Origin: Acidobacteriota bacterium | GTDB taxonomy: Bacteria > Acidobacteriota > UBA6911 > RPQK01 > JAJDTT01 | Reading direction: 5' to 3' | DNA: 64,000 nt | NCBI GenBank assembly: GCA_028874215.1 | Contig: JAPPLF010000108.1 | Location: forward strand, 5,730-69,729 | Shown: in pieces, positions 21,741-63,219 of the stretch | Numbering within the stretch: the first letter of the stretch is position 1 | How the letters are laid out: every line of letters starts with the position of its first letter | Position numbers and translations under genes: made by a program | The notes under the pieces: model-generated | The model's database searches: none | Told to the model about the DNA's origin: nothing | The model's input: only the letters and a program-made list of their open reading frames with translations

Positions 21741-21828
21741 AGTTGGCACAATGTTAGCGTGAGGAACGGCGGTTTCCAACCGCCGAACTCCTTATACTCG
21801 CGCGAGGGCCGAAAGCTGGAGACCTGCC

Positions 21829-31020: not shown

Positions 31021-32379
31021 CTACACGTCCGAGAGGAACTCCACCTGCCCGGTGCTGTCGCCGATGCGCTCGGCCGGCACTCCCAACTGGCTCAGGACCG
31101 TCATGTAGAGGTTGGTCAGCGGAGTCCCCTTTTGGAACCGGACGTGGCGGCCTCCCTTGAGCCGGCCCGCCCCTCCTCCGGCCACCAGAATCGGCAGGTT
31201 GCGGGGCGTGTGCAGGTCGCTGTCGCTCATCCCGCTTCCGTAGAGAAGGGTCACCTGGTCCAGCAGCGAGCCATTCCCCTCCGGGGTGGATCGCAGCTTC
31301 TGGAGGAAATAGGCGAACATCCGCATGTGGAGAATGCTGACCCGAGTCAGTTTCTCCAGCTTCTCCGGATCGTACTGGTGGTGGGACAGGGGGTGGTGCG
31401 GGTCCGGGACTCCGATCTCGGGATAGGTCCGCTGGCTCAGCTCCCGGCCCATCATGAAGGTGATGACCCGGGTGAGGTCCGACTGGTAGGCCAGGACCTG
31501 GAGGTCGATCATCAGCTTGGCGTGCTCTTCGAAGCTGCCGGGGATCCCGGCGGGGCGCTCCAGCACCGCCGCCTGCCGGCCGGCCTGGGTTTCCGCGATC
31601 TGGATCCTCCGCTCCACGTCCCGAACCGCGTCCAGGTATTCGACGATCTTGTTGCGGTCGCCGGCGCCGATCCTGGCCTGCAGCCGGGCCGCTTTCCGGG
31701 TCACCGAGTCGAGAATGCTCCGTTTGCTCCGGATCCGGCGGAGCCGCTCGGCCGGGTCGGTGCTCTCCTGGTCGCCGAAGAGGCGTTCGAAGACCGCACG
31801 CGGGTTGTTCTCCGTGGGGAGGGGCGTGGTCGAATTGCGCCAGGAGAGGGTGTTGATGTAGGCGCAACTGTAGCCGACGTCGCAGGCCCCCGACAGGCCG
31901 GTCGCCTCCAGGGCCAGTTCCAATGAAGCCAGTTGGGTATGTTTCCCGTACTGCGCCGCCGCGATCTGGTCGAAGGAGACCCCGGCTTCGACTCCCGCCC
32001 CTTCCGTCGGTTTCACGTGGACGCCGGTCAGGAACGCTCCCCCGATCCGTCCATGTCCACCGGCCGGCTCGCCGGGCAATGATACGGCCGGCTCGTTGCT
32101 GAGTCCGGTCAAGACCAGCAGGCGGTCCCGAAACGGAGTCAGCGGTTGCAGGATCGGCGTCAGTTCGAACTCGGCCCCTCCGGCGGCGGGAGTCCAATTC
32201 TCCATCACCGCCCCGTGAGGCACATAGACCACTCCCAGCCGGTCGGCCGGCGGGTTCGCCCCGGCGCGTCCGGGCGAAAGGGCCGGCGCCATGCTGTCCA
32301 ACAGGGGCAGTCCGATGGCGGCGCCCAGGCCGCGCAGAAACGTGCGGCGGGGCAGGGAAACCTTGCGGATGATCCTCAT
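31021..32379 (-). CDS. DUF1552 Tat-exported protein, 452 aa
   Basis: A twin-arginine leader (PRRTFLRGLGAAIGLPLLDS) is followed by the DUF1552 pattern: RLGVVYVPHGAVMENWTP, FRDRLLVLTGLSNEPA, GGHGRIGGAFLTG, YSCAYINTLSWRNSTTPLP and VITFMMGRELSQRTYPEIGV. The domain is related to the alkaline-phosphatase/sulfatase-like DUF1501 family, but no enzyme activity is established. Its ATG overlaps the stop of the DUF1592 cytochrome gene (ATGA), and the two families almost always occur as such a pair in Planctomycetota and Acidobacteriota. Likely periplasmic partner of that cytochrome. Confidence 0.9.
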   Translation of the reverse strand: MRIIRKVSLPRRTFLRGLGAAIGLPLLDSMAPALSPGRAGANPPADRLGVVYVPHGAVMENWTPAAGGAEFELTPILQPLTPFRDRLLVLTGLSNEPAVSLPGEPAGGHGRIGGAFLTGVHVKPTEGAGVEAGVSFDQIAAAQYGKHTQLASLELALEATGLSGACDVGYSCAYINTLSWRNSTTPLPTENNPRAVFERLFGDQESTDPAERLRRIRSKRSILDSVTRKAARLQARIGAGDRNKIVEYLDAVRDVERRIQIAETQAGRQAAVLERPAGIPGSFEEHAKLMIDLQVLAYQSDLTRVITFMMGRELSQRTYPEIGVPDPHHPLSHHQYDPEKLEKLTRVSILHMRMFAYFLQKLRSTPEGNGSLLDQVTLLYGSGMSDSDLHTPRNLPILVAGGGAGRLKGGRHVRFQKGTPLTNLYMTVLSQLGVPAERIGDSTGQVEFLSDV

Positions 32380-42861: not shown

Positions 42862-44547
42862 TTAGTCCCAGGCCTTGGGTGCAATGCCTTCGATATGGGT
42901 CTTGACGTCGATCACGGCGGGCCGGTCGGCAGCCAAGGCCTGCTCCAGGGCGCCGGCCAATTCGCTTGGCTTGTTGACCTGGATCCCGCAACAGCCCATG
43001 GACTCGGCGATCTTGGCGAAGTCGGCGTCGGTGAGCCTCCAGAGGAGATCGGACCCCGGCTGGCGGCCGCCGTAGATCCTTTCGTTGAGATCCTTCTCCT
43101 GGTTCAGCGAGGCGTTGTTGTTGATCAGCGTCACCATTCGGATGCCGTAGCGAAGCGCCGTATCCCACTCCGTCATGTGGTACCAGACGCCGCCGTCTCC
43201 GGTGAAGCAGATGACGGGCCGGTCTCCGGCGGCGCACTTGGCGCCGATGGCTGCGGGAATCCCCCATCCCAGGGACCCGGCGCAGCGGATGTAGGATTGA
43301 TCAGGCGACGTCAGGTCCACCAGGGTTCCGGTCCAGATGCCCGAGTGCCCGGTGTCGGACACGAGGATGGCGTCGTCGGGCAGGATCCGGGTCAGCTCCT
43401 TGCACAGCCGTTCCGGCCGCATGGGGAGCAGATCGGAGTTGACCACGGGCGCCACTTCGTCCCGCCACTCCTGGACCAGTTGGTGAATGCGGGCGATCCA
43501 ACCGGCGCGGGACCGGGCCAGCTCCGAGGACTCGACGCCGCTGCAGTGGTCCAGCATCTTGCGCAGTCCGGCCCGGGCGTCGCCCTGCATTCCGGCCGAA
43601 ATGGGAAAGGACCGGCCCAACTCGGCCGGATCGATGTCGAGTTGGACGACCCGGGTTCCGGGCCGGGGGATCCGCCAGTCGTTGGTCACCTGGCCGCCGG
43701 TGTGGCTTCCCACGAAGAAGACCAGGTCCGCTTCGGCCAGGGCCCGGTTGGCGCAGGTGCGGGAGTACTGGCCCGAAACACCGACGGCCAGCGGGTGGTC
43801 GAAGGGGAAGGTCTCCTTGGCGTTCAGGGAGGTGATGACGGGCAGTTGCAGCCGGTCCGAGAGCTCCACCAGTTCCTGGCCCGCCCCGGAGACGGTCACG
43901 CCGCCTCCCGCTACCACGATGGGCCGGCTGGCCTTGACCAACAACTCGATGGCGTCGAGCACGGGTGCCAACTCCGGCTCGGGGCGGAACGGCGGGATCC
44001 GGGCGAAGGGCTCTTCCACCACGATCTCCAGGTCTGCCTCGCCGCTCATCACCTCTCCGCCGAAGATCCCCCACAATTCCAGGTTGGTGGGTCGAGGCGT
44101 TGCCGTCGTGGCCTCCCGAATGGCTTGGCGGAGAAAGCGGGGAAAGTGGTCCACGGCGGTCACGGCCTTGCTGTACTTGGTCACGGCGGCGAAGGGTCCG
44201 GTGTGATCCACCTCCTGGTAGGCGTTCCGGTCCTGACGGATCTGAGGAAGCCGCCCCGTCAGGGCGAGTACGGGGGAACAGGCCAGATAGGCATCCTGGA
44301 GTCCGGCCGCGAGGTTCAGGGCGCCCACCGACTGGGCGCCGCAAACGCCGATCCCCCGGCGGACCCGGGCGTAACCGTCGGCCATGTAGGCGGCCGCCTT
44401 CTCGCCGTGGGTCATGACTCTGGCGATGCCCATCCGCTCCATTTCGGGCATGGCCTCGGGGATGACCACCGGCATGAAGAAGAAGTGAGTGACGCCGTAC
44501 CCGTGGAGTGTTTCGGCCAGGAAGCGGGCGCCCGTCATCGTTGGCAT
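42862..44547 (-). CDS. Thiamine-diphosphate-dependent enzyme, acetolactate synthase-like, 561 aa
   Basis: All three domains of the POX/ALS superfamily are present. The N-terminal Pyr domain has MTHGEKAAAYMADGYARV with the catalytic Glu49 that activates ThDP. The middle domain has SRPIVVAGGGVTVSGAGQEL. The C-terminal PP domain has SLGWGIPAAIGAK and the magnesium/diphosphate motif GDGGVWYHMTEWDTA to LINNN. Family members are acetolactate synthase, benzoylformate decarboxylase, sulfopyruvate decarboxylase and IolD-like hydrolases. No regulatory ALS subunit is near, so a catabolic role is more likely than branched-chain synthesis. Confidence 0.88.
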   Translation of the reverse strand: MPTMTGARFLAETLHGYGVTHFFFMPVVIPEAMPEMERMGIARVMTHGEKAAAYMADGYARVRRGIGVCGAQSVGALNLAAGLQDAYLACSPVLALTGRLPQIRQDRNAYQEVDHTGPFAAVTKYSKAVTAVDHFPRFLRQAIREATTATPRPTNLELWGIFGGEVMSGEADLEIVVEEPFARIPPFRPEPELAPVLDAIELLVKASRPIVVAGGGVTVSGAGQELVELSDRLQLPVITSLNAKETFPFDHPLAVGVSGQYSRTCANRALAEADLVFFVGSHTGGQVTNDWRIPRPGTRVVQLDIDPAELGRSFPISAGMQGDARAGLRKMLDHCSGVESSELARSRAGWIARIHQLVQEWRDEVAPVVNSDLLPMRPERLCKELTRILPDDAILVSDTGHSGIWTGTLVDLTSPDQSYIRCAGSLGWGIPAAIGAKCAAGDRPVICFTGDGGVWYHMTEWDTALRYGIRMVTLINNNASLNQEKDLNERIYGGRQPGSDLLWRLTDADFAKIAESMGCCGIQVNKPSELAGALEQALAADRPAVIDVKTHIEGIAPKAWD

Positions 44548-44762: not shown

Positions 44763-46895
44763 TCACCGTTGGCGCCTGGATGAACGTCGAGAGCCGGAAC
44801 TGCGGTTGGAAGATCCGGATGATCGGGGCGCGGACCGGACCTGGGAACCGGATGGCCTGCTTCTCGGCGGCGACGGAGCGCGATATGAGGGAGTCGACCT
44901 GGGAGCAGGCCGTGATCGCACCGAGGGACGAGAGCTTGAACGCGGCGAGGACCGGACTGACGGACGCGAGACCGTCCGCTGGGAAGTGGATCTCGACCTG
45001 GAGACGGAGGGCCTGGACTGGTTGCGGGGGGTGCGTCGGGTGACGGACCCTCGCGATCCGGACGAGGACCGGGAGATACTCCGGCTCGGAGAAGAGGGGC
45101 GGGACGATTGCGGAGTCCGGTTCGGAGTGCGGCTGAAGCTCGGGCCGGACCGCCCGCGTTCCCGGGAATCGGGACGCTGCCGGGAGAAGGTTCCCGTTGG
45201 CCCGGTCCGATTGGGACGCGTGACGAACGAAGGCCGGGATGGAGTCCGGCCGCGAGAGCCCTTGGAAACGTTATCGGGAGCGGCGACCGGAGGTTTTGAC
45301 AACTGCCGGTTGCTGCGGTTGGTGAAAGACCCTCCGGATCCGGGCGCGGACCGGGAAAGATTCCGGCTCGGAGCAGTGGAACGGGTCGTCTGCGGCGCCC
45401 GCGTCGGCGTGCGGATGACATTAACTCCGGAACCCCCGCTGCGCCGCGAATCGGACCGTTGCCGAACCGTCGATCGGGCGGGCCCGGATCGGTCGGAACG
45501 GCTCACGGCCGATCTCCGGGATGGGGCACGGACGACCGAGCCTTTGGAACCGCTCCTGGCGACGCCGGAACGCCGGGAACCGGTACCCACGAGTCGATCA
45601 CGAGTTCTGGAAGCCGACCTCGAGGAGCGGACGCCGCTTCTCGAATAGACGGCATTCGGACCCCGCCCGCGTGGACGCTGGAGTTCTCGGGGGAGCCCCT
45701 CCCGGAATCTGCCCACGATGGCGTTGGACGCGACGACTCGGGTCCTTCCTGGTCCTCTTCCCAGATCGCGCCCATGAACGACGGTCAGCCCGTTGGAGCG
45801 GTCTCGAGGATTCCAATTCCTGAATATGTTGTTGTTGACCACGACGGTCGTGTTGCCGCGCCCCCGGCGGCCCCTTCCGTAGTAGCCTCTCGGCGCCCAG
45901 CCGACGTAACCGTTTCCCCAGTAGAAGTCGACGTGAGCCGCATGCCAGCGGTTGAATCCGCCGGGCACCCAAGCCCACCGGCTCCGGGGGCCGTAATAGA
46001 TCCAGCGCCCGTAATGGTAGGGCAGCCAGCCCCAGGGCTCGTAGCTGACCCAGGTCCATCCGCCGGCGAGGAAACACCACCGTCCATGCCGAAACGGCGT
46101 CCATCCCACCGCGACGGCGGGCACCCAGACATGTCCGTGGGAGCCGTAGTGAGTCCAGTGGCCATGACGGTCCAGTGAGTGGACACCCGGATAGTCGACT
46201 CCACCCAGGTATCCGGTGGAACGGCTGCTGACCAGAAGAGCGTCCCGGCGCCCGCTCCAGAGCTCGAAGTCGTCCAGGTCGCGGACCAGCGCCTGGATTC
46301 CGACCTGGCGAGCGTCCAGCAGCAATTCCTGTCCGGTCTCCACTCTTTCTTTCCCGTGCCGGCTGTTGACTTCGGCCCGTCCCTTGTGGACCACCAGGCG
46401 CATGGTGCCGTCGGGATTGACCTGGATCCGGTAGAGTCCTTTCTTGCGGATCCTCATCGTAGCCAGTTCCATGTCCAGATAGACCGAACCGGCATCATTC
46501 ACCCGGAGGATCAGGTCGCCCTGGTGAATCTTCAGAAGGGTCTTTTTCCGGGACAGCTCCGTGAAAAAGACATCGGTTTCTCCGGAGATCCGGACGAAGT
46601 TGCCGTCCCCCAATTCCACCTCGATCCGCGAATCGGGATGAGCGACGATCCGGTCGCCGCTGACCAGCGGAAGATTGAGCGTCACCTCGCTCCAGTCCAC
46701 GTCGCCGGAAGACTCGTAGGCGGCGCGGCCGTCCATGAAGCTGACCCGGGCCGGATGGTCCCGGTCGGCCGATACCCAGGTGGTGGAAAATCCTATGGTC
46801 AGGATCAGGAGCGCGGCCAACGGAACCAGCCGGTCCCCTCGCCACGCCCTCGAGTTTTCGGAAATGCCTACTGGGTTGGATGTTGGTTTATTCAT
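44763..46895 (-). CDS. FecR-domain protein with aromatic-rich repeats and Ser/Arg-rich tail (copy 1), 710 aa
   Basis: A leader with one hydrophobic segment (LVPLAALLILTIGFSTTWVSA) precedes a FecR domain at about residues 80-190 (LPLVSGDRIVAHPDSRIEVE, VRISGETDVFF, GRAEVNSRHGKERVETGQE). Next is a DUF6600-like aromatic section (WTPFRHGRWCFLAGGWTWVS, PWGWLPYHYGRWIYYGP, RWAWVPGGFNRW). The last ~300 residues are low-complexity Ser/Arg, strongly basic, recalling eukaryotic SR tails. Probably exported and bound to a polyanion (LPS, polysaccharide, nucleic acid); FecR domains are also used as peptidoglycan or partner-binding modules. It is a tandem duplicate of 47077-48813. Confidence 0.8.
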   Translation of the reverse strand: MNKPTSNPVGISENSRAWRGDRLVPLAALLILTIGFSTTWVSADRDHPARVSFMDGRAAYESSGDVDWSEVTLNLPLVSGDRIVAHPDSRIEVELGDGNFVRISGETDVFFTELSRKKTLLKIHQGDLILRVNDAGSVYLDMELATMRIRKKGLYRIQVNPDGTMRLVVHKGRAEVNSRHGKERVETGQELLLDARQVGIQALVRDLDDFELWSGRRDALLVSSRSTGYLGGVDYPGVHSLDRHGHWTHYGSHGHVWVPAVAVGWTPFRHGRWCFLAGGWTWVSYEPWGWLPYHYGRWIYYGPRSRWAWVPGGFNRWHAAHVDFYWGNGYVGWAPRGYYGRGRRGRGNTTVVVNNNIFRNWNPRDRSNGLTVVHGRDLGRGPGRTRVVASNAIVGRFREGLPRELQRPRGRGPNAVYSRSGVRSSRSASRTRDRLVGTGSRRSGVARSGSKGSVVRAPSRRSAVSRSDRSGPARSTVRQRSDSRRSGGSGVNVIRTPTRAPQTTRSTAPSRNLSRSAPGSGGSFTNRSNRQLSKPPVAAPDNVSKGSRGRTPSRPSFVTRPNRTGPTGTFSRQRPDSRERGRSGPSFSRTPNRTPQSSRPSSPSRSISRSSSGSRGSVTRRTPRNQSRPSVSRSRSTSQRTVSRPSVRSSPRSSSRPSVRSRPAPRSTPSYRAPSPPRSRPSGSQVRSAPRSSGSSNRSSGSRRSSRRQR

Positions 46896-47076: not shown

Positions 47077-48813
47077 TCAGTTCCGGCTGCGGGAGGTGCT
47101 CCGAGAGCGGGACGCGCCTCCGGAAGATCCGGATTGCCTGGGAGGGGACTGTACCCGTGGGCTGGTCGAGCGGCTGAACGATGGTGCCGATCGGTAAGTG
47201 GGAGTCGTCCTGTTGTAGGTCGGCACCGATGACGGTGTCCGTGACCTGGATCCCGAAGAGGATCGGACCGACGGGCCGGTAAAGGTCGGCGAATCGCCGG
47301 ACCTGGATCGTCTCGAACTCCAGACCGATGGCCTGGATGAATTGCGGCTGCTTCGCGTGGTGAAGGACCCTCTGGAGGCGGGCGAAGTGCGAGAAAAGCT
47401 ACGGCTCGACGACCTTGACCGGAAAGACTGTTGGGCCTGGGTCCGCGTGCCGTCGGTTCCACCTCGGGCGACGCTGGGCCGTCGAGAACCCCCGCCCACG
47501 ACTCCCTCCCGGGAAATCCCGGTGGGCCGGGATGCCGATCTGGAGGAGCGGACGTCACTCCTCGAAAGGGCGGAGCTGCGATTCCAGACACGGGAACGCC
47601 GAAGGTCTCTGGGCAGACCTTTCCGGAGACCACCCACGACGGCGTCGGAAGCCAAGACGCGGGTCCTTGTTGGTTCTCGGCCCAAGTCGTTCCGGTGAAC
47701 GACGGTCAGGCCGTTGGAACGATCACGCGGATTCCGATTCCCCAAGGTATTGTTTGGGCGCACCGTGGTCGGATTTGCGCCTCCGATGCCCCTCCCGTAG
47801 TAGCCTCGGGGCGCCCAGCCGAAGTAGTCGCCTCCCCAATAGAAGTCCACAAGTGCCGGCCGCCATCGGTTGAACCCACCCGGCACCCAGGCCCAACGGT
47901 CCATGGGCCCGTAATAGATCCAGCGTCCGTAGTGGTAGGGGAGCCAGCCCCAGGGTTCATGGCTCATCCAAGTCAGTCCGGTGGAAAGATAGCTCCACCG
48001 TCCGTATCGGAACGGAGCCCATCCCACCGAGGCGTCGGGCACCCAGACGTGCCCGTAACTGCCGGCGTTAGCCCAGTAGCCATGCTCGTCCAACGACTGG
48101 ACCCCGGGGAAGTCAACACCTCCCAGGTATGCGGCGGAACGGCTGCTGACCATCGCGGCGTCACGCTGACCGCTCCAGAGCTCGAAATCGTCCAGGTCCC
48201 GAACCAGCGCCTGGATTCCGATCCGGCGTGCGTCCAGAAGCAACTGTTGCCCCGTTTCCACTCGTTCCTTCCCGTGCCGGCTGCTGATTTCAGCCCGGCC
48301 CTCGTGGACCACCAGGCGGATCGAGCCGTCGGGATCGACTTGGATTCGGTAATGTCCCTTCTGGCGAATCTTGACCGAGGCCTGGTCCAACTCGACCTGG
48401 ATGCGGCCGGCGTCGTTCACCCGCAGGATCAGGTCTCCCTCGTGAAGCCTCAGGATCGTCTGCTTCCGGGACAGGTCAGGGAAGAGAACATCCGTCTCCC
48501 CGGAGATTCGAACGAAGTTTCCATCCCCCAACTCCACCTCGATCCGCGAGCCGGGGTGGCCCATGATCCGGTCGCCGCTGACCAGCGGCAGATTGAGCGC
48601 CACCTCGTTCCAGTCCACGTCACCCGCAGTCTCATAGGCGGCGGTGCCGTCCATGAAGCTGACCCGGGACGGATGGTCCCGTCCGGCAGAAACCCACGAG
48701 GTGGAATTGCCCGCAATCAGGACAAGGAACGCACTCAACAGAGCCGTTCGGCTCCATCGCCGCGCTCTTGAATTTGTGGAACTACCGGTGGGAACCGAGG
48801 AAGGTGTTTTCAT
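47077..48813 (-). CDS. FecR-domain protein with aromatic-rich repeats and Ser/Arg-rich tail (copy 2), 578 aa
   Basis: The layout repeats that of the gene at 44763-46895: hydrophobic leader (LLSAFLVLIAGNSTSWVSA), FecR domain (LPLVSGDRIMGHPGSRIEVE, VRISGETDVLFPDLSRKQTI, GRAEISSRHGKERVETGQQ), aromatic section (WGWLPYHYGRWIYYGPMDRW) and a Ser/Arg-rich basic tail. The tail is about 130 residues shorter, so low-complexity sequence changed length after duplication while the folded domains stayed near-identical. Upstream it has a consensus TATAAT and GTGAGG ribosome site. Likely an envelope protein; partner unknown. Confidence 0.8.
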   Translation of the reverse strand: MKTPSSVPTGSSTNSRARRWSRTALLSAFLVLIAGNSTSWVSAGRDHPSRVSFMDGTAAYETAGDVDWNEVALNLPLVSGDRIMGHPGSRIEVELGDGNFVRISGETDVLFPDLSRKQTILRLHEGDLILRVNDAGRIQVELDQASVKIRQKGHYRIQVDPDGSIRLVVHEGRAEISSRHGKERVETGQQLLLDARRIGIQALVRDLDDFELWSGQRDAAMVSSRSAAYLGGVDFPGVQSLDEHGYWANAGSYGHVWVPDASVGWAPFRYGRWSYLSTGLTWMSHEPWGWLPYHYGRWIYYGPMDRWAWVPGGFNRWRPALVDFYWGGDYFGWAPRGYYGRGIGGANPTTVRPNNTLGNRNPRDRSNGLTVVHRNDLGREPTRTRVLASDAVVGGLRKGLPRDLRRSRVWNRSSALSRSDVRSSRSASRPTGISREGVVGGGSRRPSVARGGTDGTRTQAQQSFRSRSSSRSFSRTSPASRGSFTTRSSRNSSRPSVWSSRRSRSGDSPTFTGPSVRSSSGSRSRTPSSVPTYNRTTPTYRSAPSFSRSTSPRVQSPPRQSGSSGGASRSRSTSRSRN

Positions 48814-50085: not shown

Positions 50086-51132
50086 TCAATACCCGGCCGT
50101 CTTGTTGACGACGTTCCGGAGGGGCCGGCCGGTGGCGAACCGTTCGATGTTGTCACGGATCAGATTCGCGAGCCGAACCCGCGACAGACGGGAGCGGGTC
50201 GCCACGTGGGGTGTGATGATGACGTTGTCCATCTTCCAGAGCGGATGGTCGGCGGGAAGCGGTTCCGGATCGGTGACGTCCAGGCCGGCGGCCAGGACTT
50301 TGCCTGATCGCAGGGCCTCCAGCAGCGCGTCGGTCCGGATCACCTTTCCCCGGGAGACGTTCACCACGTAGACGCCCTCCTTCATGGCGGCGAACTCGGC
50401 GGGTCCCAGCATTCCTTCCGAGGCGGGCGTGTGGGGGACGCAGCTCACCACCACGTCGGCCTCCGGGAGGACCCGGTGCAACTGGTCCGGAGCCACCACC
50501 TCCTCCACGTCACGGCTCAGCGGGATGTCCTTGGGGTCGACGCCCAGGACCCGCATGTCGAAGGCCGCGGCGCGTTGGGCCACCTGGGAGCCGATGCCGC
50601 CCAAGCCGATGATCACCATGGTCTTGCGGCGGAGCTCGATCATGGGCAGCCGGGTCTTCCCGCGCATCCAGTTTCCGCGGTCCATTTCCCGGTCGTACTC
50701 TTTGAGATTCCGGGTGAGGGCGAGCAGCAGGGCGAAGACATGGTCGGCGATCTCGGGTCCCATCATGATCTTGGCGTTGGTCAAGGTGATGTCGCTGTCC
50801 CTCAATTCGGGAATGTGGACGATCTTCTCCACTCCGGCGCTGGTGCTGTGCACCCATCTCAGCTTCTTTCCCTGGCGCAGGATTTCCTGGCCCTTTTGGC
50901 CGTAGGGAAGCCCGATGATGGCATCGCAGTCGGCGATGACGCCGGCAATCCCCCCCTGGCCGGCCGTTACCAGCTCCAGGTTGGGCAGCCGCTTTTCCAG
51001 ATCGGCGAACTGTTTCTTGTCGCCGGCCCCGACCAGGACCCTCACCTTCGAGGCGAGGGCCGGACTCTGACCCTGGGCCACGATCCAGAGCAAGCACAGA
51101 ATCGTTGTCTTCATTGCGAACCGCGTGTGCAT
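50086..51132 (-). CDS. D-2-hydroxyacid dehydrogenase with N-terminal signal peptide, 348 aa
   Basis: A GGAGAAGG ribosome site lies before ATG 51132, which starts a Sec-type leader (MKTTILCLLWIVAQGQSPALA inside the first 28 residues). The catalytic core is complete: the GLGGIGSQVAQRA Rossmann loop, VNVSRGKVIRTDAL (substrate Arg), DVTDPEPLPADHPLW (Glu) and ITPHVATRS (catalytic His). Such enzymes reduce 2-keto acids with NADH in the cytoplasm, so an exported form is unexpected: free NAD is scarce in the periplasm. The divergent aldolase-like gene also has a leader. Family certain, export inferred. Confidence 0.88.
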   Translation of the reverse strand: MHTRFAMKTTILCLLWIVAQGQSPALASKVRVLVGAGDKKQFADLEKRLPNLELVTAGQGGIAGVIADCDAIIGLPYGQKGQEILRQGKKLRWVHSTSAGVEKIVHIPELRDSDITLTNAKIMMGPEIADHVFALLLALTRNLKEYDREMDRGNWMRGKTRLPMIELRRKTMVIIGLGGIGSQVAQRAAAFDMRVLGVDPKDIPLSRDVEEVVAPDQLHRVLPEADVVVSCVPHTPASEGMLGPAEFAAMKEGVYVVNVSRGKVIRTDALLEALRSGKVLAAGLDVTDPEPLPADHPLWKMDNVIITPHVATRSRLSRVRLANLIRDNIERFATGRPLRNVVNKTAGY

Positions 51133-51243
51133 AACCTTCTCCTTGGTGGGATCGAACTTAAAACCTGACGCCGAGCCGGGACACTGAGACCATAATGAGA
51201 CAAACTGTTCAGGAATCAAACCTGGATCGGAGGTGCGACAGCC

Positions 51244-52200
51244 ATGAGGAAATGGACACTGCTGCTGGTAATGACCCTTTTCCCCCATCTGGCCGGCTCC
51301 GGGACCGTCGCCTCTTCTGAAGCGGCCGAATCCCCGAAGCGGATCAACAAGGCCATCGAGCTGCTGGAGCGAGGGCAGCCCATCTACTACACGGGAGGCC
51401 ACGGCGGTTACGAGGAGGGGCGCAAGCTGGCCCGGACCTGGGCCGACTACATCAACTACGAGATGGAGCATGGGTCCTACGACGTGACGGCGCTCCGGAG
51501 ATTCATGCAGGGCCTGGTGGACGGCGGCCCCACCCCCAGCGGACACCGGACGCCGGCCGTGATCTGCACGCTGCCCGTGGGCGGAATCGACGAGGCCACC
51601 ATGAAGGCCAACTACTGGATGGTGCAACAGGTCCTGGCCACCGGCGTCCATGGGATCCTGCTCTGCCACGCGCGGACTCCGGGAGCGGTCCGGGTCCTGG
51701 TCCAGGCCGCCCGCTATCCCTTTCACCGCCAGGGAGTGGGGTCCGCGCTCGAAGAGGGGCTGAGAGGCAGCGGAGGCCAAGGCTACGCCAGCCAGATCTG
51801 GGGGGTCAGAGGGGGCCGTTACCTGGAATTGGCCGATCCCTGGCCCCTGAATCCCCAGGGAGAGATTCTGTTGGGTCTCAAGGTGGAAGACCGGCACGCT
51901 CTGATCAATGCGGAGGGGAGCATTCAGGTGCCGGGGGTGGGATTCGCCGAGTGGGGTCCCAGCGACATGAGATTTTCGTTGCGGGCCACAAAACTCCCGG
52001 GCGAGGAAATCTCCAAGCGGCTGCAAGCGGCCCGGCAACGAGTCTTTGCGGCCTGCAAGTCGGCCGGAGTGGCCTTCCTCAACGGCGTGCGGCCGGATAC
52101 GGTGATCGCCATGATCGACGAGGGCGTCATGATCGGGTCCGGAGGGCAGGAAGCCGCCGAGAAGGGGCGCAAGTACACCAAGCGGAAGATGCCCTGGTGA
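51244..52200 (+). CDS. HpcH/HpaI aldolase-family protein with signal peptide, 318 aa
   Basis: A Sec-type leader (MRKWTLLLVMTLFPHLAGSG) precedes an HpcH/HpaI-like barrel: GILLCHARTPGAVRVLVQAA, ILLGLKVEDRHALINAEG (acidic metal ligand region) and GVGFAEWGPSDMRFSLR (Gly-rich turn and Asp), then AGVAFLNGV. Family members cleave or form 2-keto-3-deoxy sugar acids with a divalent metal. Here both the leader and a ~60-residue N-terminal extension are unusual. The gene is divergent from the dehydrogenase at 50086-51132 across 111 bases, so they may process the same acid outside the cytoplasm. Confidence 0.75.
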   Translation: MRKWTLLLVMTLFPHLAGSGTVASSEAAESPKRINKAIELLERGQPIYYTGGHGGYEEGRKLARTWADYINYEMEHGSYDVTALRRFMQGLVDGGPTPSGHRTPAVICTLPVGGIDEATMKANYWMVQQVLATGVHGILLCHARTPGAVRVLVQAARYPFHRQGVGSALEEGLRGSGGQGYASQIWGVRGGRYLELADPWPLNPQGEILLGLKVEDRHALINAEGSIQVPGVGFAEWGPSDMRFSLRATKLPGEEISKRLQAARQRVFAACKSAGVAFLNGVRPDTVIAMIDEGVMIGSGGQEAAEKGRKYTKRKMPW

Positions 52201-52239
52201 ATTTCGGGCCCGCGCGACTCCGTGCGGCAAAGCGCCGGG

Positions 52240-54921
52240 TCAGGCTTCCGGAGGTCCGGTCACGATCGGTGCGGCGACGACTTTTCCGCCCGATCGCGCC
52301 GTCGCGATGACGGTTTCCCCAGGTTCCACGTCGACGAGGCCCGCGACGGGCAACCGCCCGTCCGGGAGTGTGCGCGCGCCGCGCAGCGGTCTTCCGTCGG
52401 TTCGGGAGAGCAACACGTCGGCGTCGGGCAGCAACGTGACGGCGGGCAGGGAACAGGAGGGGATTCTCCCGGTGCGGGAAGCGGGTTCACGGACCTGGCC
52501 TCCGCCACGGGGGCGCTCGGCCGGTGGGTCCACCAGGTTCCGGATCCGCAGACCAATGGCCGGGTCCTCCCCTCTCGGGTCGAACTCCATTTCCAGGAAA
52601 TTCCAGTAGAAGGGTCCGTCCAGCTTGCGCAGGTCCGGCGTGTCGTAGCTCTGGTGGTAGAGCGCCGTGACGGCCACCTCCCGCCCGTCGAAATCGGTCA
52701 TGCGCGGCCCGAAGCCCTCCTTGACGCCCCGGCCCCCGCTCCGGCCGATGGGACCGAAGGAACATTCCAAGACCCGGTGCTCCACGTTCTGCAGGATCAT
52801 GCCGGTATGAACGTCCCCGTAGACCGTGGTCACGCCCGTGCGTGAACCGAGCAGCTCCAGCACCCGGTCCGACCCCGCCGCGACCCATCCGGCGTAATCG
52901 GCCGCCACCCGGTCGCGCTCGCCGAGGCTGGTCTTGGCGTCGGGCCGCCGGCCGTCCCCGGTCCAGATGGTGTGAAGGCCGTTGATGCCGGTCAGGCAGA
53001 TCAGAGGCGAGGAATCGGTGCGAATCGTCTCGCGCAGCCAGGCGAACTGCTCCTCTCCCAGGAGACTGCGGGTGACGTCGGTCCGCGGATAGAGGTTCTC
53101 CCTGGCGCCCCAGCCCTGGTCGTCCCAGATGTTGGTGTCCTGGCTGGAGCGCCAGAGGCGGGAGTCGAGGATGAGCAGGCTGAAATCGCCATTGGGCATC
53201 TTCCAGCGCCGCCATTTCTTGGGGTTTTCGGTTCCGGAAGGCGCCTCGTCTCCCGTCACCAGGTGGTGAACGATCTGGAAGTTGCGCCGCATGTAGTCCC
53301 GGTCCTGGCCGAGATCGCCGTGGGCCCGGATGGCGATCTGCTCCGGACCCTTGACGTCGTCCATGCCGTAATCGTGGTCGCCGGGATTGATGGTGTTCCA
53401 GTGGCGCATCATCTGCCAGCGCGTGGTGGGGCCGCAGAGCGTGGTGGTGACGATCTTGTACGCGTCGTCGGGGGAGGGCGGGTAGAGGAGGAGTTCCATG
53501 TACCAGACGTCGTCCTCCCACATCATGACCTGGAAACCGTATTCCTCCAGGTGCCGGTAGGCGCCCGGCGTGGGCTGGTCGTGGACGAAGAACCCTCCAC
53601 CCGGTCCCGCATCGGGCAGATTCGGCTGACTTCCGTGGATGGCATGGCAGGAGAGGCCGCACAGCCGGTAGGGGGCCGAGAGCCTGGGGAGCCGCCCCAC
53701 GTAGGCGCCGCTTTCGGGGACGCCGCCGACCTGGCCGGTGCCGATGCCGACGGCGTCGCTGCCCGGTCTGGGGTCCGCCGTCACGTTGCGTCCGTCTTTC
53801 CAGACCGTGTAGTAGAGGTCGGTTTCCGCGGGATTCCGTGGCAAAGTGGCGTCGATCACGGCCGAATTGCGCCGGAAGCCGTTGTTGACGATGGGACCCC
53901 GCCCCGCCACCGGAACCGGCTCCCAGCCCCCGGCCGGATGCGGCGTGTCCGCGACCCGCACCTCGGCCCTCTCGCCGTCGCTGCGGAACAGGGCGATGAA
54001 TCGCACTTGCCAGGCGTCGCCTGCCTGGCAAAGGGTGTCCCCCAAGGCGTAGCAGACGTGGCACTCGTTGAGCAGCGGGTCCAGGGGAATGTTCTCGCCC
54101 GGGTCGATCCTGAATTCGTCGACTTCGAAGTCCAGGAGGCCGCGTGCCGCGATTCCTGCGAAGCCCTGAAGGTGTCTTGTGCGGTCCCGGTTCTCCACCT
54201 GAATCTCGGCGACTCTGCCGCGTCCCTCGAGGTCCAGCGACGCCGACACGGTTCCGCGGTTGGAATCGGCGCCTGAGACGGACACGACGATCCGGTAACT
54301 GTCTCCGGCTGCCGGCTTCGGAACCCGTTTGCCGGTGATCACGGTTTCCGAACCGTGCTCACGAATCCCGAAGCGGCCGTCGTCGGTCCACGCCGCGATC
54401 CAGGCCGCCTTCCCGTCGGGTCCGGACATGCCGAACGACTCGTACAGAGTCGACGAACCGAAAGCGAGGCCCAGCAGGCCGTACCCCGCCTGGTACATGC
54501 GCCAGTTCGGATCGTCGTTCTCCCATGGGCCGTGCGAGGGGGCGTGAATCCGTCCCGTCATCTCGAGCCCGTAGTTGCCGGCCAGGCGCCAATGCCGGTG
54601 CCAGGTCAGCCCCGGGGGAAGCGAGGGGTCGTAGTCGACCGGCATGGTGTGGCTCCCCAGCCGGTCTCCGTGAGTCTCGTAGTGATAGGGGAATCCCGTG
54701 TTGCGGGCCCGGTCGCCCAAGTTGTGGATCCGCCGCCGCAGGGCGTTGTTCCGGATGCTCCAGTAACCGGGATTGAGCGTCTCCCAATCGTCCCCGTGGT
54801 AAAGGGAGTCCGGCCGCCGGAACGAGACGGCGTGCGCCCGAGCCTCTTTGGTGGAGACCGAGGCCACCGCCGTGGCCGTCGCCGCCTGCAGGAACGTTCT
54901 GCGGTTCATGGAGTTTTTCAT
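52240..54921 (-). CDS. Tat-exported PhoD-like metallophosphatase, 893 aa
   Basis: The leader NRRTFLQAATATAVAS is twin-arginine type. Residues ~35-290 form an extra N-terminal beta region (LNPGYWSIRNNALRRRIHN, GLTWHRHWRLAGNYGLE) resembling a concanavalin-like domain. The PhoD core follows: SCHAIHGSQPN, INPGDHDYGMDDVKG (metal Asp/His/Asp) and YGDVHTGMILQN (His). PhoD enzymes are calcium/iron phosphodiesterases for extracellular organic phosphate, usually near 500-600 residues, so this one is enlarged. It lies 59 bases after the tetraheme cytochrome and may belong to the same operon. Substrate unassigned. Confidence 0.75.
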   Translation of the reverse strand: MKNSMNRRTFLQAATATAVASVSTKEARAHAVSFRRPDSLYHGDDWETLNPGYWSIRNNALRRRIHNLGDRARNTGFPYHYETHGDRLGSHTMPVDYDPSLPPGLTWHRHWRLAGNYGLEMTGRIHAPSHGPWENDDPNWRMYQAGYGLLGLAFGSSTLYESFGMSGPDGKAAWIAAWTDDGRFGIREHGSETVITGKRVPKPAAGDSYRIVVSVSGADSNRGTVSASLDLEGRGRVAEIQVENRDRTRHLQGFAGIAARGLLDFEVDEFRIDPGENIPLDPLLNECHVCYALGDTLCQAGDAWQVRFIALFRSDGERAEVRVADTPHPAGGWEPVPVAGRGPIVNNGFRRNSAVIDATLPRNPAETDLYYTVWKDGRNVTADPRPGSDAVGIGTGQVGGVPESGAYVGRLPRLSAPYRLCGLSCHAIHGSQPNLPDAGPGGGFFVHDQPTPGAYRHLEEYGFQVMMWEDDVWYMELLLYPPSPDDAYKIVTTTLCGPTTRWQMMRHWNTINPGDHDYGMDDVKGPEQIAIRAHGDLGQDRDYMRRNFQIVHHLVTGDEAPSGTENPKKWRRWKMPNGDFSLLILDSRLWRSSQDTNIWDDQGWGARENLYPRTDVTRSLLGEEQFAWLRETIRTDSSPLICLTGINGLHTIWTGDGRRPDAKTSLGERDRVAADYAGWVAAGSDRVLELLGSRTGVTTVYGDVHTGMILQNVEHRVLECSFGPIGRSGGRGVKEGFGPRMTDFDGREVAVTALYHQSYDTPDLRKLDGPFYWNFLEMEFDPRGEDPAIGLRIRNLVDPPAERPRGGGQVREPASRTGRIPSCSLPAVTLLPDADVLLSRTDGRPLRGARTLPDGRLPVAGLVDVEPGETVIATARSGGKVVAAPIVTGPPEA

Positions 54922-55534: not shown

Positions 55535-56298
55535 AAGTGGAGGCGGCAGATGTAGCCCGAGTACCGGCTGTTCGAGTCCCCTCCGCCGGGAGCGATGCCG
55601 GCGTCGGTGTAGTAGAAGACCCCCTGGTGCATGGTCATCCCGTGGGGATCGGGGTCGGACCGGCTCAACTGGATGGCCTCCATGATGCGGCCGTCCTTGG
55701 CGTCCAGACGGTGGATCACGTAGTCGTTCGAGAACATGCACCAGATGGAACCGTCGTCCCACGCCAGCCCGTGGGCCCGTCCCAGGGTCACCGGGATGGA
55801 GTGAAGAACGCGGAAATCGGGATCCACCTGGGTCAGGCTCTTGCGGCGCAAGGTGGTGATCCAGAGGGTGTTTTCGGCCCAGTTCAGGCCGTGCACGCCC
55901 CCTCCGCCCGGAACCGGATGCCGGGCCAGGGTCTTGCCGGTTGCGGGGTCGATCTGCAGGATACGTCCGGTCTTGGCGTCCGTCGGTCTCGGCGGCCTTC
56001 GCAGTGCGGGTCCGTTGGCCGCCATCCAGAGGTAGCCTCCCCCGTACGCCATGCCGCTGGTGTTCGTGGACTCGGTCGGAACTTCCTGCAATACCTTGCC
56101 CGTCTTCCAGTCCAGAAGGTAGGCCTTGTTGGTGAGCTGCTCTCCCACCCAGAGCCCCTCGGCGGTGGCCTCCAAGGCGTTGGGATATTTGTCGGGAGAC
56201 CGCCACAGGGTCTCCACTCGGGGTGTGCGGACCGGATAGCCTCGCGGCCCCAGCGCGGCCGCCGCCAGCAGCTCCAAGAATTCTCTGCGATAGAACAT
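55531..56298 (-). CDS. YncE/SMP-30-like beta-propeller protein, 255 aa
   Basis: After a short RR-containing leader (YRREFLELLAAAALGPRG) come repeated propeller blades with GLWVGEQLTNKAYLLDWKTG, GRILQIDPATGKTLARHPV, NTLWITTLRRKSLTQVD and YVIHRLDAKDGRIMEAI. The spacing matches YncE, PQQ or SMP-30-like propellers, but conserved PQQ ligands are not evident. Its ATG overlaps the FMN dehydrogenase stop by one base (TGATG), and its own stop overlaps the cytochrome start, so it is in the middle of a tightly coupled operon. Possibly a docking or substrate-binding subunit. Confidence 0.8.
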   Translation of the reverse strand: MFYRREFLELLAAAALGPRGYPVRTPRVETLWRSPDKYPNALEATAEGLWVGEQLTNKAYLLDWKTGKVLQEVPTESTNTSGMAYGGGYLWMAANGPALRRPPRPTDAKTGRILQIDPATGKTLARHPVPGGGGVHGLNWAENTLWITTLRRKSLTQVDPDFRVLHSIPVTLGRAHGLAWDDGSIWCMFSNDYVIHRLDAKDGRIMEAIQLSRSDPDPHGMTMHQGVFYYTDAGIAPGGGDSNSRYSGYICRLHL

Positions 56299-57500
56299 CA
56301 GAACCCCCGTATCCGAACCAGGGACTTGTCGATTTCGGCAATCCTGGCGACGCCGGCCATTCCCATATCCAGCGCCAATTCCACTCGAAGCAGTTCGAGC
56401 ACCCGGGAGACTCCCTGGTGGCCGAAGCAGGTCAGCCCCCAGAGATAGGGACGCGCCACGCCCACGGCGGTGGCTCCCAGCGCCAGGGCCTTCAGGATGT
56501 CTCCGCCGCGGCGAAAGCCTCCGTCGATCAGCACGGGCAGGCGGCCCTGGGCCGCGGCGACGCACTCGGGCAGAGCCTCGATGGTGCCGCCCACGTGATC
56601 CAGTTGCCGGGCCCCGTGATTGGAGACCACGACCGCCGCCACGCCCTGTTCCGCGCACTTCGCCGTGTCCTCGGCCGTCATGACCCCCTTGATGATGATG
56701 GGCAGGTCCGTCAGCTTCATCAACTGGTCCAGCGTTTCCCAGGTCGGTGTGGGAAACGGACGCTCGGGATAGACGCCGGTGCGCCAGAAGCGGTCCCGGG
56801 GTGTGTAAATCAGATTCCCTTCCGCGTCTCTGGGAATTCCGGTATCACACCACCCGCGTACGAACCGGTTGTAGATGCTCCGTTCCCGGTAGGAGACGTG
56901 CATGTTGTCCACGGTGAAGCAGATGCCGGCGGCTCCCTGATCCTCCAGCCGCTCCACGAAGTTCAGCATGCTGTTTTCATTTCTGAACTCGCCGCCGGTC
57001 GTGTACTGCCACCAGTACCTGGGGCCCTCGCCCGATTCCAGGTATTCGTCGATGCCGCCGTTGGTGATGAACATGGCTCCGGAAGCCGCCGCGCCGCGGG
57101 CGGCCTCCTCTTCTCCGCCCGGAAAGAAACAGTTCTTGCCGCCGGCCGGACAGACGAAGATGGGATAGTCGAGTTTCGTGTCCAGGAAATCGATGGAGGT
57201 GTCGATCTTGTGGACGTCGGTCAGGATCTTGGGGCGGAGGATGATCCGCTCGAAGGCCTTCCGGTTGTCGCGGAGGGACACCTCGTCCTGGGAGCCTTCG
57301 GCCATGTAGGCCCAGGCCACCGGGTCGAGCTTGGACTGGGCCAGCTTTTCGAAGTCGAAGACGTTGACCAGATCCAGAAGCTGCTTCTCGCTTTCCGGGG
57401 ACGAAAGCGCGGATTCGAGCAGGCCGGTCCGTCCCGCCAGAAGCGGAGAGGAGATCAAAAACTGGGCAAAAGCGGCTATAGCGTGGCGTCGAGTGAGCAT
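56298..57500 (-). CDS. Tat-exported FMN-dependent alpha-hydroxyacid dehydrogenase, 400 aa
   Basis: The leader (LTRRHAIAAFAQFLIS) is twin-arginine type. The core is the lactate-oxidase/flavocytochrome b2 barrel: VAWAYMAEGSQDEVSLRDN, LDYPIFVCPAGGKNCFFPGG, LPIIIKGVMTAEDTAKCAEQ and the family signature SNHGARQLD holding the active-site His and Arg, then VLIDGGFRRGGDILKALALG for FMN phosphate. Members oxidise L-lactate, glycolate, mandelate or longer 2-hydroxyacids. Export and the coupled tetraheme cytochrome suggest a dehydrogenase that passes electrons to heme, not oxygen. Substrate cannot be read from sequence. Confidence 0.88.
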   Translation of the reverse strand: MLTRRHAIAAFAQFLISSPLLAGRTGLLESALSSPESEKQLLDLVNVFDFEKLAQSKLDPVAWAYMAEGSQDEVSLRDNRKAFERIILRPKILTDVHKIDTSIDFLDTKLDYPIFVCPAGGKNCFFPGGEEEAARGAAASGAMFITNGGIDEYLESGEGPRYWWQYTTGGEFRNENSMLNFVERLEDQGAAGICFTVDNMHVSYRERSIYNRFVRGWCDTGIPRDAEGNLIYTPRDRFWRTGVYPERPFPTPTWETLDQLMKLTDLPIIIKGVMTAEDTAKCAEQGVAAVVVSNHGARQLDHVGGTIEALPECVAAAQGRLPVLIDGGFRRGGDILKALALGATAVGVARPYLWGLTCFGHQGVSRVLELLRVELALDMGMAGVARIAEIDKSLVRIRGF

Positions 57501-61626: not shown

Positions 61627-63219
61627 ATGGGCGCCGCCCGAGAATCTGAATTGGATCGGCGCAGCTTCCTGGCCGGTTCCACCTCGTTCCTAGCGGCGGG
61701 GCGGGGACTGCGGGGCCGGAAACGCGCCTCCGAAGAGGGAACGCGAGACTACCGAATCGTTTACAACGACGATTCCTTTGCGCCGATCCTCATGTCCGAG
61801 AGCCTGGAGCACTTCCTGGAACTGGCCGTCGACCGGTTTCTGGGGACCCAGGTGGATGCCCTCTTCTGGAACGTCATCTCCAGCGACGTGCTGCACTACC
61901 CTTCGGAGGTGGCGGAGATGGTGGGCGCCCATCTGGACGGTTTCGAATCGGCCGACTACTTCCAGTGGTACCAGCGCCTGATGAAGATCGTCGAAGAGCG
62001 GCCCGATTATCTCCAGGCCATGAATGATCGGGCTCGAGCGCGGGGTCTGGAGTTCTTCGCCTCGCTACGGATGAACGACTGTCACGAGAGCCCGGTCTGG
62101 AAATCGATGGATACCCTCAGCCGGTACCGGAAGGAGCATCCCCAGTTCCTGTTGGGAGATGCGGTCCATCCCGGCTTCAGCACCGGATTCGATTTCGCCC
62201 ATGCCCCGGTCCGGGAGCGCCGCTACCGGATCGTCGAGGAGCTGGCGACTCGCTATCGCCTCGACGGTATCGAGCTGGACTTTCTGCGGCATCCGGCCTA
62301 CTTCAAGCCGGATGAGGCCTACCGCAACCGGCATCTCATCACCGGCCTGGTCCGCCGGGTCCGGGCGCTGTTGGATCGGCTCCGGGAGGAGACGGGCCGG
62401 AGGGTCCGGCTCGCGGTTCGAGTCGCCACGCCCATGGAGATCTCGCTGCGGATGGGCCTGGACGTGGAGACCTGGATCCGGGAGGGACTGCCCGACCTGG
62501 TCATCGCCGCCACGCCTCGCGGCTTCGAGTTGAGCCTTCCCTTGGAGCAGTACGTGGAAGCGGTTCGGGACCGGCCCATCACCCTGCTGGCCCAAATGGG
62601 CTGGCACCAGCCGGTGAAGGAAGCCCGCGGCGCCGCCTTGAATTTCTGGGACCAGGGGGCCCACGGCATCTATCTCTTCAACTGGTACTCGCGAAAGGAC
62701 CGGCATCACGAGTCCTTGCGCGAAATCGGCGACCCCGGCGTTCTGCGGAGGCGGGACAAGGTCTATCCGGTCCATACCCAGGAGGGCGATCTCTGGGCCG
62801 GCACCCACCCTCCCGCACAACTTCCCTTGAGCTTGTCCACCGCGTCTCAGGGGGACGGGGCGGACGTCCGGCTCAGGATCGGGGACGACCTGGCCGCGGA
62901 CGCCGCGGATGGACGTCTCCGGAGCGCCCGGCTGCGGATGCGGTTCAAGAAGCTTCATTCCGACGACAGGATGGAAGTGGCGCTGAACGGAATTCCCCTG
63001 GCGCCTGAGACCGGAAAGCGCAGGATCGACGATGCCAACATGTACGTCTGGAAGTACTGGATCGAGTATGAGTTGCCGGTTCCACCGCTGCGGGCGGGAG
63101 TCAACCGTTTTCTAATCCGGCTCGCTCACCGGAACCCCGGTCTGGACGGGCCGGTCACCTTGGCGGAGATGAAGGTGGAGTTGGACTACCGGGACGGCGA
63201 CGATAGCCGAACCGTCTGA
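61627..63219 (+). CDS. Tat-exported GH10-like TIM-barrel protein, 530 aa
   Basis: The leader LDRRSFLAGSTSFLAAGRG is twin-arginine type. Residues ~40-360 are a glycosidase-like TIM barrel (FLGTQVDALFWNVISSDVLH, RARARGLEFFASLRMNDCHE, YRLDGIELDFLRHPAYF, RLAVRVATPMEISLRMGLD, GAHGIYLFNWYSR). A further ~150-residue beta domain follows (LRMRFKKLHSDDRMEVALNG, VNRFLIRLAHRNPG). IELDFLRHP holds acidic residues where a catalytic acid is expected. It is co-transcribed with the propeller paralogue upstream, and probably with the Gfo/Idh/MocA gene 69 bases downstream. Confidence 0.65.
   Translation: MGAARESELDRRSFLAGSTSFLAAGRGLRGRKRASEEGTRDYRIVYNDDSFAPILMSESLEHFLELAVDRFLGTQVDALFWNVISSDVLHYPSEVAEMVGAHLDGFESADYFQWYQRLMKIVEERPDYLQAMNDRARARGLEFFASLRMNDCHESPVWKSMDTLSRYRKEHPQFLLGDAVHPGFSTGFDFAHAPVRERRYRIVEELATRYRLDGIELDFLRHPAYFKPDEAYRNRHLITGLVRRVRALLDRLREETGRRVRLAVRVATPMEISLRMGLDVETWIREGLPDLVIAATPRGFELSLPLEQYVEAVRDRPITLLAQMGWHQPVKEARGAALNFWDQGAHGIYLFNWYSRKDRHHESLREIGDPGVLRRRDKVYPVHTQEGDLWAGTHPPAQLPLSLSTASQGDGADVRLRIGDDLAADAADGRLRSARLRMRFKKLHSDDRMEVALNGIPLAPETGKRRIDDANMYVWKYWIEYELPVPPLRAGVNRFLIRLAHRNPGLDGPVTLAEMKVELDYRDGDDSRTV

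Follow-up and report, generated by a model that had tools for sequence, protein, structure and literature searches.

The usual view places NAD in the cytoplasm alone, and we know of no supply of it in the periplasm. An extracytoplasmic dinucleotide oxidoreductase is known from Zymomonas, the periplasmic NADP enzyme glucose-fructose oxidoreductase, which leaves the cytoplasm by the Tat route, folded and carrying its cofactor. According to Halbig (1999), as cited in PMC7317946, this enzyme is exported via Tat and needs bound NADP. The protein described here, P0001, is comparable to it in the idea of a dinucleotide oxidoreductase that works outside the cytoplasm, but P0001 is a member of a different family and lacks the twin arginine. 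No Gfo/Idh/MocA domain is found among its Pfam matches.

In its Pfam domains, Rossmann motif and catalytic Arg and His, P0001 resembles the D-2-hydroxyacid dehydrogenases (DHDHs) of the Haloferax mediterranei DHDH/phenylpyruvate reductase type (5mh5, 8hpg), from which it differs by an N-terminal leader and by an Asp at position 288. It scores 218.2 bits against the NCBIfam equivalog, below the cut-off of 400. The neighbouring protein, P0002, resembles the HpcH/HpaI class II pyruvate aldolases (4mf4, YfaU 2vws, SwHKA 6r62) in its fold, its EH motif and the positions of the metal-ligand Glu and Asp. It differs from them by a leader and by having no Arg at the pyruvate-binding position, and its score against the HpaI equivalog, 38.8 bits, is far below the cut-off of 368.8. 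One paper lists a D-2-hydroxyacid dehydrogenase with 'No' in a column of uncertain meaning (PMC12502724), and another gives such an enzyme as cytoplasmic (PMC6444534). We found no report of an exported DHDH clade in the open-access literature. Exported cytoplasm-type redox enzymes are already known; the novelty lies in a clade of DHDHs whose leaders are mostly of the Sec type.

The window, that is, the whole stretch of DNA analysed, comprises 64,000 nucleotides of an Acidobacteriota bacterium (contig JAPPLF010000108.1). In it, P0001 and P0002 are encoded by neighbouring, divergent genes with 111 bases between their start codons. The region contains these features:

50086 to 51132, minus strand: P0001, a leadered NAD-type DHDH of 348 aa (Pfam, structure, leadered clade)
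51052 to 51132, minus strand: predicted Sec-type leader of P0001, residues 1-27, with a candidate cleavage site A25-L26-A27/S28 (sequence; the fold starts at about residue 28; the leader is present in all four genomes of the window's genus)
51139 to 51144, minus strand: ribosome site AAGGAG of P0001, identical in the three remaining genomes of the genus
51133 to 51243, no strand: common divergent intergenic region of P0001 and P0002, 111 bases (alignment to L041, L033 and L034)
51229 to 51235, plus strand: ribosome site GGAGGTG of P0002 (sequence)
51244 to 52200, plus strand: P0002, a leadered HpcH/HpaI-fold enzyme of 318 aa (Pfam, structure, tree)
51244 to 51327, plus strand: predicted leader of P0002, residues 1 to about 28, the cleavage point being uncertain (homologue starts, structure, leader rule)
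52240 to 54921, minus strand: PhoD-like protein with a Tat leader, encoded between the gene pair and the gene of the FMN enzyme (PF09423, E 3e-05, 23.7 bits, below the cut-off of 27)
56298 to 57500, minus strand: FMN-dependent 2-hydroxyacid dehydrogenase/oxidase with the Tat leader MLTRRHAIAAFAQFLISSPLLAG (PF01070, 318.4 bits; recurs near P0002-type genes)

Both genes start with ATG, P0001 at 51132 (minus strand) with AAGGAG 6 bases ahead and P0002 at 51244 (plus strand) with GGAGGTG 8 bases ahead. The earlier note on this DNA had described a complete DHDH and an HpcH/HpaI-type protein, each with a leader, and the reading frames, Pfam matches and structures all agree with that description. It had credited the DHDH with a strong ribosome site; P0002 has a strong one too. 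Within the genus, the intergenic region carries 1 mismatch in L041, 6 in L033 and 15 in L034, and a scan of it for sigma-70-like sites and terminators returned none. A 714-aa reading frame at 50086-52230 (minus strand) arises from upstream read-through in the frame of the DHDH and was rejected as a gene.

P0001 matches PF02826 with 202.5 bits (cut-off 25.1) and PF00389 with 33.5 bits (cut-off 24.6). Its AlphaFold model (pLDDT 88.9) aligns with 8hpg (Z 29.9, rmsd 3.1, 307 residues aligned) and with 5mh5 (Z 29.5, rmsd 3.0, 299 residues aligned). The dinucleotide motif GLGGIG occupies residues 176-181 and the acid after beta 2 is D199, which is of the NAD type. Arg261 and His309 are present, and the acid position is occupied by Asp288; we take this position to be the site of the usual catalytic Glu in many members of the family.

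P0002 matches PF03328 with 35 bits (cut-off 25), and its AlphaFold model (pLDDT 91.7) is a TIM barrel that aligns with 4mf4 over 236 residues (Z 25.1, rmsd 2.7, 22% identity). Residues H76, E215 and D241, presumably the catalytic His and the metal-ligand positions of HpaI, are conserved in the family. The Arg that binds the pyruvate carboxylate in HpaI is, we assume, R70. In a profile alignment to 4mf4 the equivalent residue of P0002 is Thr109; 61 of the 76 leadered rows have Thr here, and Arg is not among the residues listed for this position in any HpaI-like group. As the pyruvate-binding Arg is absent, the name 'pyruvate aldolase' is unsupported, and P0002 was rejected as a pyruvate aldolase proper; it is probably an HpcH/HpaI-fold, metal-dependent lyase or aldolase. 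The proposal that both chemistries of the pair act on 2-keto acids thus loses its footing for the P0002 family, even though the His and metal-ligand positions are in place.

The N-terminus of P0001 is MHTRFAMKTTILCLLWIVAQGQSPALA, followed by the candidate cut and then by SK; that of P0002 is MRKWTLLLVMTLFPHLAGSGTVASSEAA. Both consist of a charged n-region and a hydrophobic core without a twin arginine, as judged by a leader rule of our own, which uses hydrophobicity, charge and the absence of acid in the core and differs from SignalP. A Tat leader on P0001 was rejected, RR being absent. The rule flagged none of the 29 DHDHs outside the leadered clade and none of the 13 leaderless HpaI-like proteins. 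The Met residues of P0001 are M1 and M7, the next being at 123; those of P0002 are M1 and M10, the next being at 74. As neither protein has a Met between its leader and its core, an internal Met start would ruin the core, and such starts were rejected. The remaining three genomes of the genus conserve M1 of P0001 with its ribosome site and do not keep M7. The AlphaFold models begin to align at about residue 28 (P0001) and about residue 33 (P0002), where the solved enzymes have their first residues, so that the leaders are additions ahead of complete folds. Export of both proteins is the strongest part of the proposal and is very probable.

A fixed rule, applied to 86 non-redundant DHDH rows, finds a leader with a start codon in 57 and no leader in the other 29, among them nine paralogues from the window genome (L116, L208-L215). 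Core duplicates and matches spanning fewer than 120 residues were left out of this count. In the phylum sample, 36 places reached an E value of 1e-60 or lower, with loci for part of them, and a further listing gave 43 places, of which the 25 with loci were read. In a maximum likelihood tree (quick search), the 57 leadered DHDHs form one side of one branch (SH-aLRT 92); of 500 label shuffles, none came out as low. In the drawing, which is midpoint-rooted and has no outgroup, their sister branch consists of the leaderless L115, L116, L223 and L224. Given this arrangement, export may have been gained in a single event, in an ancestor of these Acidobacteriota DHDHs.

The motif GxGxxG, Arg261 and His309 are each present in all 57 leadered DHDHs, and Asp or Glu occupies the NAD-type position in 51; they look like working enzymes. 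The form VTDPEP, found in 49, occurs among leaderless rows too. The cores of the leadered DHDHs contain 0.39% cysteine versus 0.92% in leaderless ones (Mann-Whitney p 2.4e-5, a nominal value as the rows are related), as would be expected for proteins outside the cytoplasm. Ahead of the hydrophobic stretch, RR is found in 12 of the 57, KR or RK in 5 and neither in 40. The 12 RR-bearing proteins may use Tat. In two g78 genomes a leadered DHDH is one of several closely packed genes for exported-type proteins:

L219, 2595-8377, and L220, 2154-7912, same strand: Tat-leadered xylose-isomerase-like TIM barrel, PQQ-dependent dehydrogenase, leadered DHDH, DUF3604 protein with a lipobox

In 20 other loci the neighbours of the DHDH gene differ, and many have N-termini that appear leader-like by eye.

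The P0002-type loci, 80 in number, were also judged by eye. Sixty-seven are leadered, L064 being the weakest case, and the leaders are Sec-like, Tat-like (MNRRTLL, MTRKQFL) or, in L058, contain a lipobox. Almost all of these loci are labelled Acidobacteriota; the exceptions are L041, L055, L074 and L076, the submitter labels of which may be wrong. L055, L074 and L076, labelled Acidimicrobiia or Gammaproteobacteria, fall in Acidobacteriota branches of the HpaI-like tree and represent either mislabelled bins or transfer. The remaining 13 loci, from Poribacteria, Dehalococcoidia/Chloroflexi, Latescibacterota and Abditibacteriales, are leaderless: translation begins at the core Met, which has its own ribosome site. 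The outcome that the earlier note named as refuting export, leaders absent in homologues and an internal Met start, is therefore not borne out within Acidobacteriota; in the HpaI-like family, leaders are missing outside the phylum, in these 13 loci.

With rows from the phylum sample added, the HpaI-like set comprises 99 non-redundant rows, of which 73 pass the leader rule, 4 more were called leadered by eye (L061, L064, L070, L094), 13 are leaderless and 9 lie inside long frames; the latter are g78 frames with an HpaI-like domain (L148, L150, L151, L153-L159; 9 non-redundant rows). A tree of 98 rows, from which L140 was omitted owing to its short core, places the leaderless rows on one side of one branch, with a weak support of 63. 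The cysteine content of leadered and leaderless P0002-type cores does not differ (p 0.35), and cysteine depletion was dropped as support for P0002 export.

The neighbours of the P0002-type genes give some indication of their role. The TRAP transporter genes DctP-DctQ-DctM directly follow the P0002-type gene in 10 of the 80 loci, all of them leadered and labelled Bryobacterales or Terriglobia. A close homologue of the FMN enzyme lies beyond the TRAP genes in 6 of these 10, and homologues with 60-68% identity occur in all 11 genomes searched (the ten TRAP genomes and that of L047). In 23 of 23 loci read, the leader of the FMN enzyme carries RR; rows L173 and L174 failed the leader rule and were judged by eye. 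As no DctP protein was found in the window genome, the TRAP link is not directly applicable there, and TRAP was rejected as part of the window's own system. In L036, L040, L044 and L098 the neighbours are Tat-leadered xylose-isomerase-like and GMC oxidoreductase-like proteins. Of the 80 P0002 loci, just two have the PhoD-like neighbour, L033 and L034, both from the window's genus.

The window contains further exported-type enzymes, with Tat-like leaders on Gfo/Idh/MocA, enolase-superfamily, PhoD-like and FMN enzymes. The FMN and Gfo/Idh/MocA enzymes are, like P0001, redox enzymes of a cytoplasmic type that are directed to the outside, but they bear twin-arginine leaders and could be loaded with cofactor before export, whereas P0001 has no twin arginine. 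The earlier note had considered the periplasm an odd compartment for an NAD enzyme. There is indeed a cofactor puzzle, as P0001 has an intact dinucleotide motif and no twin arginine, but an exported enzyme as such is nothing odd in a genome with Tat-like leaders on four enzymes of one window.

By combining these observations, it is possible to describe how the system may work. P0001 and P0002 would both carry a cleavable leader and would work outside the cytoplasm, the periplasm being the most likely place. In the P0001 clade, in several Acidobacteriota lineages, a leader, mostly of the Sec type, would have been gained while the dinucleotide-binding and catalytic residues were kept. A Sec-type leader implies export in the unfolded state, and P0001 must then find NAD(H) outside. 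It might fold after export, capture NAD(H) released into the periplasm or the surroundings and bind it tightly. It could then interconvert 2-oxo and D-2-hydroxy acids in closed redox cycles that require no cytoplasmic recycling, a logic similar to that of glucose-fructose oxidoreductase, with a different export route. P0002 would be an exported metal-dependent HpcH/HpaI-fold lyase or aldolase acting on a sugar-acid-like substrate, the product of which might be imported in other lineages by the TRAP carboxylate transporter. The FMN enzyme, owing to its twin-arginine leader, can load its cofactor before export, and together the three proteins would constitute an extracytoplasmic module for hydroxy and oxo acids. 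Such a module, with NAD capture by P0001, is in our judgement the best explanation of the whole, and its probability is somewhat better than even. That P0001 is active with NAD outside the cytoplasm has a probability at or slightly below even.

Could the leaders be annotation artefacts or chance hydrophobic extensions of cytoplasmic proteins? The leaderless HpaI-like homologues of other phyla (13 of 80 loci) would fit such a reading, and so would the faster evolution of the DHDH leader relative to the core within the genus (nonsynonymous codons 15/81 versus 75/963). However, ribosome sites sit at the leader starts, no Met separates leader from core, leaders occur in 57 DHDH rows versus none of 29 controls, and one and the same HpaI-like core bears Sec-like, Tat-like and lipobox leaders; the artefact is largely refuted already and highly improbable. 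It is somewhat less improbable, yet still quite unlikely, that the hydrophobic N-termini are uncleaved anchors and the enzymes membrane-bound, possibly at the periplasmic face. The leaders are hydrophobic enough for anchoring and sequence alone cannot establish cleavage, but in P0001 the core follows immediately on a small-x-small site, A25-L26-A27, and in many homologues the leader is short and ends in an AxAQ-like site. Both points argue for cleavable leaders.

If the proteins are exported, the DHDH clade of P0001 may still have been repurposed for a binding, structural or scavenging role without redox turnover, NAD being scarce outside the cytoplasm. The Sec-type leaders, the Asp instead of Glu at position 288 (as VTDPEP in 49/57) and, as far as we are aware, the lack of any known periplasmic NAD supply are in line with this possibility. 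The invariance of GxGxxG, Arg261 and His309 and the NAD-type acid in 51/57 would be unexpected had catalysis been lost, and VTDPEP is not confined to leadered rows; the repurposing of the clade is unlikely. A larger share of doubt falls on the link between the two genes, which may be exported yet functionally unrelated and neighbours by chance. Close relatives of P0001 are missing from the examined flanks of 76 of the 80 P0002 loci, being present only in L033, L034 and L041 of the window's genus and in L060, and in a sample of 396 genomes of the phylum both families occur together in 14 genomes of only two genera (overlap counted by hand). On the other hand, the distant genome of L060 (Bryobacteraceae) provides a second pairing in a different orientation, in which a leadered DHDH (51% identical in the part that matches, GTG start, no clear ribosome site) begins 11 bases downstream of the stop of a leadered P0002-type gene on the same strand. 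Moreover, the two proteins would share a compartment, and the 111-base intergenic region is conserved in the genus. Chance adjacency is thus a possibility to be taken seriously, although it falls well short of an even chance; for a joint pathway of P0001 and P0002 the chances appear to be even. The most specific proposal, that Acidobacteriota possess a Sec-exported, catalytically intact clade of NAD(H)-dependent DHDHs that acquire and keep the dinucleotide outside and share an extracytoplasmic hydroxy/oxo-acid pathway with an exported lyase of the HpaI fold and the FMN enzyme exported by Tat, is tentative and lies a little below even.

The observation itself, computed from reading frames, leaders and their conservation, clade structure, intact motifs and recurring neighbours, is real and unusual; leader cleavage, compartment, activity, cofactor source, substrates and a joint pathway are predictions. 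If the extracytoplasmic NAD-dependent role of P0001 is correct, it would imply capture or retention of NAD in the periplasm, which could be tested with one protein, and would run counter to the view that enzymes with cofactors are exported in the folded state, through Tat. The pair would also point to an overlooked extracytoplasmic step in the use of sugar acids or hydroxy acids, tied in other lineages to TRAP uptake.

Several minor observations accompany this analysis. Tat-like leaders are found in the window at 10869-12344, 20541-21779, 31021-32379 and 61627-63219 (Gfo/Idh/MocA, enolase superfamily, DUF1552 and one protein without a Pfam match), and the window genome seems rich in Tat-exported enzymes. 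Two large tandem paralogues, encoded near the pair at 44763-46895 and 47077-48813 (minus strand), resemble each other at the N-terminus and have long C-terminal tails rich in Arg, Ser and Pro. A thiamine-diphosphate enzyme, acetolactate synthase-like and with no evident leader, lies a few genes away at 42862-44547 (minus strand) and is possibly a further 2-oxo-acid enzyme. In L218 (3317-6058) the HpaI-like domain forms the C-terminal part of a 913-aa right-handed beta-helix protein, and the gene upstream of this fusion bears a laminin-G-like domain. A Dehalococcoidia genome carries two leaderless HpaI-like paralogues in tandem (L097, 3178-4089 and 5001-5882), and in four Poribacteria loci (L099, L103, L107, L108) a gene of the RraA-like aldolase family follows the leaderless HpaI-like gene.
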